Origin: a virus
Length of the DNA stretch: 59,810 nucleotides
Direction: 5' to 3' (one strand)
Virus record (IMG/VR): IMGVR_UViG_3300035182_000400
Span: 1 to 59,810 of that record
Shown: one piece after another, positions 15,772 to 43,445 of the stretch
How positions within the stretch are numbered: the stretch's first letter is position 1
Layout of the letters: every line of letters starts with the position of its first letter
Notes under the pieces: model-generated
Told to the model about the DNA's origin: nothing
The model's input: only the letters and a program-made list of their open reading frames with translations
Databases searched by the model: none
Program-made: the position numbers and the translations under genes

Positions 15772-16032
15772 CTATTTAACTAAATGAGCATATCCCATAC
15801 GCTCGTAAATTTCCATATTAGTATCAAACGAACCCTTACAACGATTGTTAGCTTTTCTATTCTTACCTTCTGTTCCATGACAGATTTGATGAGATTTAAA
15901 CAAATTTCTTGATTGTACTTCTGATGCTAAAGTAGGATTTTGTTGACGTCCGTTCTCGTCAGGCTTGAAAGGACAAGTCTTACAATATCCCTTCATTACT
16001 GGTAACTCGTGAGCAGGAACTTTACTACTCAT
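15772..16032 (-). CDS. DUF6283-like cysteine-motif protein (86 aa)
   Basis: The start at 16032 (ATGAGTAG overlap with the J-domain stop) is preferred over an upstream TTG. Cysteines occur as CKTCPF (about 17-22), QICHG (about 50) and NRCKG (about 65), the arrangement of the DUF6283 family found in phages and actinobacteria, likely to bind a metal. Function of the family is unknown to me. Confidence 0.55.
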   Translation of the reverse strand: MSSKVPAHELPVMKGYCKTCPFKPDENGRQQNPTLASEVQSRNLFKSHQICHGTEGKNRKANNRCKGSFDTNMEIYERMGYAHLVK

Positions 16033-16714
16033 CCTCTTTGAGTTGTTTAGCATCGTCTTCAGATATTTCTTGTCCTGGCATGTTGGAAGAATATTTATCC
16101 CCAAATAAAGATTCTAAATCAATAGCAATCCATCCTTTTTGTTTTGATTTTTCAGGAACTTCTGTAAAATCGTAATCATAATCATCAAGTGCTAAAAGAC
16201 ATTTTTCAATGAACGCTTTCTCTTCTTTTACTTGCTCAATTACATTCTTAATGTTATGTAATTTTGATTCAAGAATCTTAGACATGATATTTTCACCTCC
16301 GTTCTTTTTCTTACATCTTACAATCGCAGCTTCTATATGTTTAGATTTCTTTCCTAAGTCTATTATATTGTCTGTTCCAACACGAATTAAATCAGACACG
16401 TGCTTCTTAGCTTTCTTCATTAAGTCAAAGTCAAGATTATCTGCTCTTTCGATTATCGGAACAATCTGACTAGCTACAAATCCAAAGAACTGTTCTTCAA
16501 ATCCTTTATCCTTTTCGATTCTACCAGTTGAGTCATACTTTGCTCTCCTTTTTCCATCCGATAGGACGTCATAAGCAGTCTGTATTCTGTTGAACTCCTT
16601 TTCGCTACCACCTTTATCTGGATGATGAATCTTAGCCAGATTTCGATAAGCAGTTTTGATTTCTTCTGGGGTAGCATCTTTCGATACTCCTAATATGTCG
16701 TACAAATTATTCAT
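16025..16714 (-). CDS. J-domain (DnaJ-like) protein
   Basis: Residues 1-63 form a J domain, NLYDILGVSKDATPEEI..., with the HPD tripeptide at 31-33, the part that stimulates DnaK ATPase. No Gly/Phe region or zinc-binding repeats follow; instead about 165 residues of helical, charged sequence. It probably recruits host DnaK to a phage client. Its start overlaps the small membrane protein's stop (ATGA), so the two are translationally coupled. Confidence 0.85.
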   Translation of the reverse strand: MNNLYDILGVSKDATPEEIKTAYRNLAKIHHPDKGGSEKEFNRIQTAYDVLSDGKRRAKYDSTGRIEKDKGFEEQFFGFVASQIVPIIERADNLDFDLMKKAKKHVSDLIRVGTDNIIDLGKKSKHIEAAIVRCKKKNGGENIMSKILESKLHNIKNVIEQVKEEKAFIEKCLLALDDYDYDFTEVPEKSKQKGWIAIDLESLFGDKYSSNMPGQEISEDDAKQLKEDE

Positions 16715-19590: not shown

Positions 19591-19607
19591 TATATTTCGT
19601 TTTTAAG

Positions 19608-19683
19608 ATTAATTCTTAAACGAAGTTCTATATAATTTTTTATATAGCAATGAAGAAGTTCAATTATTTTACAAAGTATTTTG
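19608..19683 (-). promoter_or_regulatory. Dispersed repeat element, copy 2 (promoter candidate)
   Basis: The core at 19608-19632 is identical to copies 1 and 3, and the flank to 19683 is nearly identical to copy 1 apart from a few changes. On the minus strand it reads TTG, then the CTATATAA/TTATATAG inverted repeat, then TATAGAACTTCG. It is the only sequence of note between the 87-residue gene and the 80-residue gene. Confidence 0.6.
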
Positions 19684-19710
19684 TATATTGTAGTGTCTAT
19701 AGGAAACGAA

Positions 19711-19736
19711 GAATGGAGACTTTTACATCTCCATTC
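19711..19736 (-). terminator. Perfect 9-bp hairpin, terminator-like
   Basis: GAATGGAGA (19711-19719) pairs with TCTCCATTC (19728-19736) over an 8-nt loop. The minus strand continues TTCGTTTCC, so the U-tract is imperfect. It lies between the exported 87-residue gene and repeat-element copy 2, where one transcript should end and another start. Confidence 0.5.
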
Positions 19737-19794
19737 GTATATAACAAATACTATCGTATTTCGGTCAGCTTTTCTTATCAGCTTATTCCTTATG

Positions 19795-20058
19795 CTATTC
19801 ACGTTTATATACTTGTCCACGCCTTGGGCTGACCTTCCCATACAGACAGTCGACTTTGGTTCCAACTGGTCGATTGCTGTCATACGCTTCACAGTCATGG
19901 GAGGACTTATGAACATAGTTATCAGCTGGGTTAAAAATATGCTCTTTAGGAATAATGAAATCGTCAATTACATATGTATAATGCTTCATCGAACAAGGTA
20001 TAACTACATACTCTGAACTCTCTAGACAAATCAAATACAATACAATTAATAATTTCAT
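19795..20058 (-). CDS. Hypothetical protein with hydrophobic N-terminus (87 aa)
   Basis: Starts MKLLIVLYLICLESSEYVVIPC, a short hydrophobic run after one Lys that could be a signal sequence or lipoprotein-like anchor, though the usual small residue before the Cys is absent. The rest is Tyr/His/Asp-rich and ends basic. Two cysteines (HDCEAY, VDCLYG) may pair if exported. Followed by a hairpin terminator. Confidence 0.5.
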   Translation of the reverse strand: MKLLIVLYLICLESSEYVVIPCSMKHYTYVIDDFIIPKEHIFNPADNYVHKSSHDCEAYDSNRPVGTKVDCLYGKVSPRRGQVYKRE

Positions 20059-20071
20059 TCCTGTTTATTTC

Positions 20072-20725
20072 TTATTCTACAATTACCCAATCCTCAGCTA
20101 AAATGTCTGTCTGAGATGCTAGCCAAGGAACGAATTTATTGTCTGCTGTTTTCATTCCTATCCAAGGCAATAATGTTGAGCCTTCAGATACACGGTCTGC
20201 TTGTTCGTCATGGATAAGCATATCATTGTAGGGTTCAACATGACGGAGCCACATCCCTTTCTCATTCCATCCTCCTCGTGCAACTTTACGTCCTTTCTTC
20301 ATAGCTTCTACTGCTAATCCAAATGTTAATGCATTAGAAGGTCTATTTGTCTCCTCGAATGATTCTTTGTCTTGCCACCACTCTGCTCCGTTATTAGCTA
20401 AACATTTGTAGCCTTCTTTTCCATCCTTCATTTCTGAATGAGCCAATAAGGACTTTGTTCCAATGTAATTTTGATACGGTGAATTGTTCATATTATTTGT
20501 ATTATTTGGTTTAAATTCTATTTTGAATATATTATAACTAAATGGAAGAACAAAACACATTGTTTCATGTATTGGATAAATCAGTCTTTTGAAAAATTGC
20601 CTGCCTGTGACATGAGAAATGAAATTATAACCTCTCTCTGTTACTTTCTCAAAATGATAAGATTTTCCTTGTATCTGATAAACCTCTCCAATTTCCAGAT
20701 TAAATCTTTTTAATCTAACTGTCAT
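20072..20725 (-). CDS. tad2: Tad2-like (DUF2829) anti-Thoeris protein with extra domains
   Basis: Residues 133-217 are a DUF2829 domain: LTFGLAVEAMKKGRKVARGGWNEKGMW..., then LPWIGMKTADNKFVPW and ASQTDILAEDWVIVE. Family members (Tad2) sequester the gcADPR signal of the Thoeris defence system. Residues 84-130 carry the YIGTK...GYKCLANNG..WW module that often precedes it. The first 75 residues are an additional domain I do not recognise. ATG M79 (20491) could start a shorter form. The identity of the domain is good; the anti-Thoeris role is by family. Confidence 0.75.
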   Translation of the reverse strand: MTVRLKRFNLEIGEVYQIQGKSYHFEKVTERGYNFISHVTGRQFFKRLIYPIHETMCFVLPFSYNIFKIEFKPNNTNNMNNSPYQNYIGTKSLLAHSEMKDGKEGYKCLANNGAEWWQDKESFEETNRPSNALTFGLAVEAMKKGRKVARGGWNEKGMWLRHVEPYNDMLIHDEQADRVSEGSTLLPWIGMKTADNKFVPWLASQTDILAEDWVIVE

Positions 20726-20726
20726 G

Positions 20727-21137
20727 CTATTTAGATTTTTTAGTTTCTTTGCGTAACTCTGACAATATGTTAGTCAGCATTAGTTTCTCTTCAAACGACA
20801 TCTTATCATATTCCTTCCTAGAATTGATTGCCGTCTCATATACCAAGTTTATATCAATATTTGCGTTTCTATGAGCTTGTCTTATTTCTTTTAATTCTTC
20901 AGAAGACTTACCATCTTTGATAGCCTTCATTATGTCCTTTAATCCTACGCCATAAATCTGACCTAGTGATTTCTCTAACTCAGCTATTAAATCTTTCGTT
21001 AATCTTTTTAGGTATTGCTTAAACAAACCTTCTTGCTCTAAATCTTCTAAATCATCGAACAAGGCTTGAGCATTTATCATCACGTTACATAACGTTGTGA
21101 CTTGGTCTTTGTAAATGAATTTCTTTTTATCTATCAT
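20727..21137 (-). CDS. Hypothetical helical protein (136 aa)
   Basis: The start at 21137 (MIDKKKFIYK) overlaps the upstream stop by 11 nt; an ATG 48 nt further up would overlap by 59 nt. Lys/Glu/Leu-rich helices throughout, with no domain recognised. Confidence 0.55.
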   Translation of the reverse strand: MIDKKKFIYKDQVTTLCNVMINAQALFDDLEDLEQEGLFKQYLKRLTKDLIAELEKSLGQIYGVGLKDIMKAIKDGKSSEELKEIRQAHRNANIDINLVYETAINSRKEYDKMSFEEKLMLTNILSELRKETKKSK

Positions 21138-21871: not shown

Positions 21872-22129
21872 TTATTGTATTAAGTGAATAATTGATTCTG
21901 CTACCTGAATTACTGTCATCTTACCCCATTCTTCTGTATGGTCATCATTGATTGCAATATCGTAATGTTTCTCAATCTCCATACATAATTCTAATCGGTC
22001 AAGACTATCCAAACCTAAGTCATCTTGAAGTTTCAGTTTCGTATCTTCTGAAATCTGCTCTGTATCTACAAGAAATTTGTCAACAATTATCGTGTTGATA
22101 TCCTTTACTAATTGTTCTTTTACGTCCAT
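21872..22129 (-). CDS. acpP: Acyl carrier protein
   Basis: The 85-residue acidic helical protein has the phosphopantetheine-attachment motif GLDSLDRLEL with Ser42, preceded by the usual DLGL context. Length and charge agree with bacterial ACP. It would be charged by host AcpS to carry acyl groups. In a phage it may redirect host fatty-acid or lipid synthesis or serve a modification enzyme; no acyltransferase is recognised nearby. It lies between an HTH protein and a membrane protein gene. Confidence 0.88.
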   Translation of the reverse strand: MDVKEQLVKDINTIIVDKFLVDTEQISEDTKLKLQDDLGLDSLDRLELCMEIEKHYDIAINDDHTEEWGKMTVIQVAESIIHLIQ

Positions 22130-34633: not shown

Positions 34634-35794
34634 TTACTTTTTACCTTTTTTCAGTCTTGCACGAATATCATCCATACTCATCTTTCCTTTGGTCTTAGGC
34701 TTTTCGTCTTCATCCTCATCGTCTTCATCATCATCGTCTTCATCCTCATCGTCTTCATCCTCTTCAACAACTACTTTTTTGACAGGCTTTTTCTTTGGAG
34801 TTGGTTTTTCATCCTCATCTTCATCCTCATCGTCTTCATCTTCATCCTCATCCTCATCCTCATCCTCATCTTCATCGTCTTCAACAACTACTTTCTTAGA
34901 AGTTTTCTTAGGCTCAGGCTTCTTAGAAGTTTTCTTCTTAGGTTTTTCATCTTCGTCATCGTCATCGTCATCAGAATCTCCGTATTGAGACTTAACCTTC
35001 TCAACAATCTCTAACCAATCTTCATCATCAAAGAAATCAATCTCATGCTCAGAATCAAAGAATCTTAAACCTTCTAAAGCAAGTTCAAAATCTTTAGTGC
35101 TATACACGTTCAAATAAAGTTCTTGTAATGACTTAGCCTTATCGAACTTCTCAAGATTTTCATCTGAAATCGGTGTTGCTTTCTTTCCTACAGACACCTC
35201 GTAGTAATCTTCACCTTTTTTCTTATTAGGCTTAGAATTATATTTAATCAACAAAGGCAGACCTTCGTCAATATCAGTGAATGGGTCAACTTCAATCGGT
35301 TCATCATCATCCTCTACAAAAGTGGCTTTATTGATAGCATCACGAACAGTTTTCTTAAAAGAAATCAATCCAAATTCTCTTTGTTCTTTTGAGATTTTTT
35401 CTGAATAAGCAATCCAAGAATGCTCTGCTCCAAGACCACCTTTCCAGTCAGTTACTTTAGAAAGTTTATCCTTATCATCAAGGTGTTTTTTGCAGTAATC
35501 AACATACTCATCAATTACATCTAATTTTGTTCCTCCATGTTGTCTAGAGTTCAATACAGTTCTCTTGACTGGGTCTCCATTCTCACCTTCGATAGTAAGC
35601 CAATGTCTCTTTCTTAATATAAAGAAATCCACACCGTCATGAGCTGGGAATAATCGGAACTTGTTTGTTTTTCCTTCTTCAATTTCCAAGAACTCATTTT
35701 TTGAAAATGCTCCTATGAGCTCATTTTCTTTGTCTACCTTTTGTTTAAGTAAATCAACCTTCGCAGGCTTGTACTTGCTTCTTAAATTTGCCAT
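34634..35794 (-). CDS. Single-stranded DNA-binding protein-like (T4 gp32 type)
   Basis: 386 residues. The first 250 form a compact domain with EIEEGKTNKFRLFPAHDG near 37-54, the KxRxxPx beginning typical of gp32-like phage SSBs. It is followed by alternating acidic blocks and Lys modules: PKKKTSKKPEPKK, KPTPKKKPVKKVVV, with long ED runs, then a C-terminal basic tip. Acidic tails of SSBs recruit replication proteins. Placed next to uvsX, UvsY-like and polymerase genes. Confidence 0.7.
   Translation of the reverse strand: MANLRSKYKPAKVDLLKQKVDKENELIGAFSKNEFLEIEEGKTNKFRLFPAHDGVDFFILRKRHWLTIEGENGDPVKRTVLNSRQHGGTKLDVIDEYVDYCKKHLDDKDKLSKVTDWKGGLGAEHSWIAYSEKISKEQREFGLISFKKTVRDAINKATFVEDDDEPIEVDPFTDIDEGLPLLIKYNSKPNKKKGEDYYEVSVGKKATPISDENLEKFDKAKSLQELYLNVYSTKDFELALEGLRFFDSEHEIDFFDDEDWLEIVEKVKSQYGDSDDDDDDEDEKPKKKTSKKPEPKKTSKKVVVEDDEDEDEDEDEDEDEDDEDEDEDEKPTPKKKPVKKVVVEEDEDDEDEDDDDEDDEDEDEKPKTKGKMSMDDIRARLKKGKK
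34700..34976 (-). repeat. Low-complexity Asp/Glu-coding repeats
   Basis: Three tracts of GAGGAT/GAAGAC-type triplets on the minus strand (34703-34765, 34810-34882 and 34949-34972) encode the acidic runs of the ssDNA-binding protein. The plus-strand serine-rich frame over this region is an artefact. Confidence 0.85.
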
Positions 35795-42404: not shown

Positions 42405-43445
42405 TTATTTCTTAGATTTTTTCTTGATAGGAGCAACAGGTGCCTCTTCTTTCTTAGATTTAATATTCTCTACTTTTTTCTTGTTTGAAGATTTCAAATC
42501 ATTTTCCATCTTCTCACGATTTTTACCTAACTTCTCATCTTTCTTAGAAAGATTTGAAACAACAGTATCAAATGCATCTTTATTTTCTTCGATACACTCA
42601 ACCAATTCGTCTAGTGAGATACCCATCACAAGCATATTACCTGACCAAGACTTCTTGATTTCAAAATCTTCTCCAAATAATTCACGAAGAACATTTTCAT
42701 CACGAACAGAAGACATATAAACTCGTCCGATAATTTCACCATCTTTAGTAACTTTAGGTGAATCAAATGACATGAATACTTTCTTGTTATTTTTTCCTAA
42801 GAATTTTACAGAAACACCTCCATTTGCAATAAAGTTGTATTCAAAGTCTTTTCCTAATGCTTTCTTTAAAGCATTGAATTTCTTCGCATCATCTTCTGAC
42901 ACCAAAGGATTCAAACGTTTAGAAACTTTCGATTCAGCTGTTTTCTTAACTTTATCTACAGTTTCCTTTTTAGCTTTCTTATCCACTGTCTTCTGAATCT
43001 TGTCATTCTTTTTCTCTACTTCGACAGACTTCTTAGCAGACTTTTTCTTTGGGGCAGGTGCCTCTTCTTCGTCTTCATCTTCATCCTCGTCTTCATCCTC
43101 GTCCTCGTCCTCGTCCTCGTCTTCATCTTCATCCTCATCCTCATCTTCCTCGACAACTTTCTTTGAAGATTTTTTCTTTGGAGCAGGCTTTTCGTCTTCA
43201 TCCTCTTCATCCTCTTCAACTTCGTCAGCTAAATCCTCTTTAGCTTGGTCGCTATCTTCGTACATAGCATCAACCATTTCGTACAAATCTTCGTAAGAGT
43301 CGTCCTCAACATCTTCGATATCATTCTCATTCAAGAATTCAATCATTTTTTCTCTTGCTTCTTCAACAGTCTTTACTCCTGTGATACCTACGTTAGAAAG
43401 TCCTTTCAATTGGTCTTTATCTAACTTTACATCTTTTTTTGCCAT
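42405..43445 (-). CDS. Acidic/Lys-module protein, possible replication partner (346 aa)
   Basis: The N-terminal 75 residues form a small helical domain. Residues about 77-170 alternate Asp/Glu runs with KPAPKKKSSKKVVEEDE and APAPKKKSAKKSVE modules, close to those in the SSB-like protein. Residues about 178-305 are a compact domain (SVKFLGKNNKKVFMSF...GEIIGRVYMS) I cannot place. The end is a Lys-rich tail. Shared modules suggest the two act together. A promoter-like sequence lies 79 nt upstream. Confidence 0.6.
   Translation of the reverse strand: MAKKDVKLDKDQLKGLSNVGITGVKTVEEAREKMIEFLNENDIEDVEDDSYEDLYEMVDAMYEDSDQAKEDLADEVEEDEEDEDEKPAPKKKSSKKVVEEDEDEDEDEDEDEDEDEDEDEDEDEDEEEAPAPKKKSAKKSVEVEKKNDKIQKTVDKKAKKETVDKVKKTAESKVSKRLNPLVSEDDAKKFNALKKALGKDFEYNFIANGGVSVKFLGKNNKKVFMSFDSPKVTKDGEIIGRVYMSSVRDENVLRELFGEDFEIKKSWSGNMLVMGISLDELVECIEENKDAFDTVVSNLSKKDEKLGKNREKMENDLKSSNKKKVENIKSKKEEAPVAPIKKKSKK
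43061..43153 (-). repeat. Low-complexity Asp/Glu-coding repeats
   Basis: About 15 hexanucleotide-like units (GAAGAC/GAGGAC/GATGAG on the minus strand) encode the acidic run of the 346-residue protein. The plus-strand serine-rich frame is an artefact. Confidence 0.85.

Follow-up and report, generated by a model that had tools for sequence, protein, structure and literature searches.

A phage tad2 gene with an ORFan N-terminal extension and a nested native start

The window analyzed here, a complete IMG/VR record of 59,810 bases, carries on its minus strand at 20072-20725 a clear member of the Tad2 family that has an ORFan extension at its front and the family's native start nested inside the gene; the family is a known one, and the extension itself is without relatives in the databases scanned. 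The 217-codon ORF was confirmed (ATG at 20725, stop at 20072) and divides into three parts, namely an ORFan extension (residues 1-78), a YIGTK module (residues 79-130), and a Tad2 domain (residues 134-216). Our preferred reading, which we hold to be slightly better than an even bet, is that a tad2 gene whose own start remains intact has been fused in frame behind a small ORFan on a replacement cassette of about 0.8 kb, that both a 139-aa and a 217-aa form are to be expected, and that the product is a sponge for ADP-ribose-type signals. The features are as follows.

19948-20743, no strand assigned: replacement cassette carrying the gene; its flanks are 72% and 75% identical to those in the close relative L037, whose DNA in between is unrelated.
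20072-20725, minus strand: long ORF of 217 aa, with its ATG at 20725, a start context of 7.5 bits, and, one base ahead of the ATG, the stop of the preceding gene.
20492-20725, minus strand: ORFan N-terminal extension, residues 1-78, predicted to be beta-rich at low confidence (pLDDT 54), with an open frame and no relatives in the databases scanned.
20526-20554, minus strand: Bacteroidota-like promoter match TTTG-N19-TATATT, 35 bases before ATG 20491, weak and post hoc.
20492-20516, minus strand: A-rich leader of ATG 20491 with a weak 55-nt fold, read in the long form as the Asn-rich linker FKPNNTNN.
20072-20491, minus strand: short form of 139 aa (YIGTK module plus Tad2), with a start context of 8.3 bits; relatives start 1-4 residues before the module.
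20336-20491, minus strand: YIGTK module with its N-terminal leader, residues 79-130, from alignment with relatives.
20078-20326, minus strand: Tad2 (PF11195) domain, residues 134-216, from the Pfam profile and from PDB sequence and fold matches.

The C-terminal domain had been called Tad2-type (DUF2829) in the first-pass annotation, and the profile searches bear this out. Pfam family PF11195 (Tad2-like, DUF2829) matches residues 134-216 over profile positions 2-73 of 73 with 84.2 bits (E 9.1e-24; curated cut-off 25 bits), a match to PHROG 872 spans residues 101-217, and all the invariant columns of 24 aligned members are present (GWN, MKTAD, WL.SQ.D.L..DW). The best solved sequence relatives are ModTad2 (9eib, 8v3e; from a Myroides prophage), HgmTad2/AcrIIA7-type proteins, and SPO1 Tad2. 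For most of the Tad2 part, a full-length, single-chain AlphaFold2 model has a pLDDT above 75, and Foldseek retrieves 9eib, 8smg, and 8wjd (E about 1e-6). The N-terminal part of this first model of the whole protein was disregarded, because some of the relatives' modules had been misaligned onto residues 1-30.

The YIGTK module stands directly before Tad2, as in the phrog_872 architecture, and here too the first-pass annotation was right: residues 84-217 match module-bearing phage proteins, and the module, which is a common N-terminal one among many phage Tad2 proteins, aligns with 10 relatives. YIGTK itself occupies residues 87-91, eight residues after an internal ATG (residue 79, position 20491). 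A second, alignment-based scan yielded 72 distinct relatives, 26 of them module-bearing; 24 of these 26 have an ATG 1-4 residues ahead of the module, and the other two (L069 and L095) have a valine three residues ahead of it, which likely represents a GTG start. Similarly, the coding sequence in Klebsiella phage JZBo1 begins 6 codons before the residue equivalent to residue 84 of the window protein. As the relatives start 1-4 residues before the module, ATG 20491 sits at the natural start of the family. None of the 26 carries the 78-residue extension. The window thus has a strong-context start at the module, and yet the frame runs on for 78 codons upstream to another strong start.

Genes of this phage have A-rich leaders and mostly lack Shine-Dalgarno motifs. 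In Bacteroidota (Flavobacterium), A at -3, -6, -12, and -13 promotes initiation (PMC6847099), and A at -3, -6, and -12 precedes both ATG 20725 and ATG 20491. With a position-specific model built from 46 trusted starts, ATG 20725 scores 7.5 bits and ATG 20491 8.3 bits, so that both outscore 45 of the 46; among 900 internal ATGs in any frame, AT-matched ones included, none reaches the score of either. The suggestion that the internal ATG might serve as a second start has therefore gained weight, since no other internal ATG in the genes of the window has so strong a context. Its leader is almost unfolded (-0.4 kcal/mol over 55 nt vs a trusted-start mean of -4.3). ATG 20725, for its part, lies one base after the stop of the upstream gene.

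These observations bear on the possibility that the internal ATG is silent and the gene a genuine three-part fusion yielding the long form alone. Such a fusion would agree with the single continuous frame and would do away with what is otherwise a 235-base intergenic gap in a tightly packed operon, but the internal ATG beats all 900 others and coincides with the family start, and we regard this explanation as improbable.

The opposite explanation, in which the short form is the sole product and the stretch for residues 1-78 is either an untranslated leader or what is left of a small gene whose frame runs by chance into tad2, is a more serious contender, albeit still an unlikely one. It draws on the relatives, which do without the extension, on ATG 20491, whose strong and unstructured context matches the family start, on the promoter-like match 35 bases before that ATG, and on the non-coding-like composition of residues 42-78. 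The promoter match, however, was chosen after it had been seen, and the strand holds 14 matches of the TTTG-N19-TATATT type. Moreover, the context of ATG 20725, right behind the upstream stop, is just as strong, and the 77 extension codons are stop-free in this frame, which is improbable by chance (only 0.24%, or 0.0024, of dinucleotide shuffles are as open); the other two frames contain several stops each across the extension.

Codon statistics give a mixed picture. By a combined codon score, residues 2-41 look coding-like and residues 32-78 do not, whereas synonymous codon choice is ordinary along the whole extension. In amino-acid composition, residues 42-78 depart from what is typical of this phage (0.2% of coding windows are as low), and the first half of a conserved small gene of the same phage (21639-21869) is equally unusual in its amino-acid make-up. 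A non-coding verdict on residues 42-78 by codon score was consequently softened, as the deficit lies in amino-acid composition only and synonymous use is normal. The extension is probably, though not certainly, translated: open frame and codon use support it and the stretch does not look obviously dead, whereas the absence of sequence relatives in the databases scanned and the odd composition of residues 42-78 count against it.

Had an assembly or sequencing error joined two separate genes through an indel, the frameshift would predict another coding-like frame around residues 42-78, and none is seen. The fusion comes from a single metagenomic viral contig and IMG/VR scans did not find a second copy of the cassette, both of which would suit an artefact, but we consider one very improbable.

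The first-pass annotation had also foreseen that the extension might prove unused, with translation starting at 20491 and relatives lacking it. Half of this holds, in that the relatives do lack it (0 of 26) and 20491 looks like a true start. Disuse, on the other hand, does not follow, given that ATG 20725 is just as good a start and that the frame is more open than chance would predict. We thus return to the preferred reading, under which the gene likely makes both the family-typical 139-aa product and the unusual 217-aa product.

The N-terminal part was described at first as unrecognized, with a search of it alone for homologs proposed, and both the description and the search come out the same way: residues 1-78 have no match in any database scanned. 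This covers Pfam, PHROGs, and NCBIfam, the PDB, 50,697 phage records (searched with the whole extension and with its core), IMG/VR viral contigs (8-mer peptide patterns), genome contigs (GTDB), and 399 genomes of one phylum, the latter in a search run without a positive control. The degenerate pattern GYNF...KR.IY gave 7 chance matches in viral contigs with no corresponding ORF. The extension is not a duplicate of the YIGTK module either (hhalign probability 0.1%). A single-sequence model suggests beta strands (pLDDT 54); a named fold was set aside as too weak at this pLDDT and a best BFVD E of 0.05.

In the closest relative found, L037, the flanks are syntenic but the DNA between window positions 20743 and 19948 is unrelated, and Tad2 is absent from its 98.7-kb record. 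L037 likewise has a small gene whose start abuts the end of the upstream gene, which marks the site as an accessory gene slot. L038, which is more distantly related, encodes a Tad2 in this region whose N-terminal part is different. The simplest history is that a tad2 with its own leader was joined in frame to a preceding small gene, and we read the Asn-rich linker FKPNNTNN as the old tad2 leader, now translated. The terminase resembles those of Bacteroides phages at 35%. We take tad2 to be an accessory gene of a Bacteroidota-type tailed phage.

The cassette is bordered by a further element (19593-19947, minus strand), which is 75% identical to L037 13951-14304 over 362 bases, with long identical blocks in its core (about 19745-19947). 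The ORFs of window and L037 are homologous here only in HIFNPADN, no Rfam match was obtained, fold z-scores are -1.1 and -0.2, and a 23-base core is present in only one other IMG/VR record; this is a conserved, seemingly non-coding element at the cassette edge. Elsewhere on the minus strand, the window encodes a phage acyl carrier protein in the operon upstream of tad2 (21872-22129; PF00550, phrog_5934), a DnaJ-domain protein of 229 aa (16025-16714; PF00226, E 4e-22), and two proteins with very long acidic Asp/Glu/Lys-rich tracts (34634-35794 and 42405-43445).

As to function, Tad2 tetramers capture TIR-derived signals and leave them undegraded (PMC12043709), and the Thoeris signals are gcADPR in type I and His-ADPR in type II (PMC12948488). 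Going by its family, the Tad2 domain would most likely assemble as a tetramer and sequester an ADP-ribose-derived signal from TIR (Thoeris) enzymes, so that the host suicide effector would stay off. A gcADPR sponge had been proposed originally; membership of the Tad2 family makes a sponge likely, but naming gcADPR goes too far, given that ModTad2, the solved relative nearest to the window protein, binds His-ADPR of type II Thoeris (PMC13299392), with the title of PDB 9eib also giving ModTad2 with hisADPR. In the fold search, ModTad2-hisADPR and SPO1 Tad2-gcADPR score nearly equally, both near 40% identity. An ADP-ribose-type TIR signal is the probable ligand, and between gcADPR and His-ADPR the sequence alone does not choose. 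A macro-domain protein of the same phage (13501-13962, minus strand), whose conservation extends to L037-L039, matches the phrog_335 phosphatase at E 3e-53 and a DarG antitoxin model at E 2e-14; it is a second candidate for handling ADP-ribose-based defense.

In the proposed scheme, a small ORFan coding sequence would have come to lie in frame ahead of tad2, which kept its own leader and start codon. Initiation at ATG 20491 would give the family-typical 139-aa form and initiation at ATG 20725 the 217-aa form, in which a small, putatively beta-rich domain on the Asn-rich linker precedes the 139-aa part; mixed long/short tetramers and an added function from the extension may follow. That the extension is a working domain through which the long form acquires a new partner, location, or ligand, with the nested start providing mixed tetramers and a dual-form sponge, is speculation that we think improbable; the new specificity or localization suggested in the first-pass annotation is likewise speculative. 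If the long form is made and acts differently, it would offer a tractable instance of a single gene yielding two sponges. In any event, the locus neatly illustrates how sponge genes travel on small cassettes, gain in-frame partners, and retain their own start, and it calls for caution, as long annotated anti-defense ORFs may hide the family's real start internally.

Among the known systems, SPO1 Tad2 (8sme-8smg) is a homotetramer that sequesters gcADPR (PMC12043709); this single-domain protein of 89-90 aa shares the fold of the window protein at about 40% identity over 85 residues. ModTad2, from a prophage of the Bacteroidota member Myroides odoratus, is the best PDB sequence match (9eib, 8v3e; E 2e-15) and also a fold match (38-40% identity, E 2e-6), but its 88-89 aa comprise the Tad2 domain only, without YIGTK module or ORFan extension. 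AcrIIA7/HgmTad2-type proteins (9kzr, 8kbi) have the DUF2829 domain and the WLASQTD...DW motif in common with the window protein, yet contain a longer insertion in the domain, on which cyclic-dinucleotide binding by Tad2 proteins of this kind depends (PMC12043709). The YIGTK-Tad2 phage proteins of the phrog_872 type (Klebsiella phage JZBo1 gp64, Escherichia phage Huey) show the same order of module and Tad2, with 42-58% identity to the short form, but they start at the module, without the 78-residue extension. Finally, gp49/66-Tad2, RKKPVVIEA-type module-Tad2, and tandem Tad2 proteins also have Tad2 at the C-terminus, with N-terminal parts that differ from that of the window protein; Tad2 is thus found behind unrelated small phage domains, and its fusion is a recurrent event.
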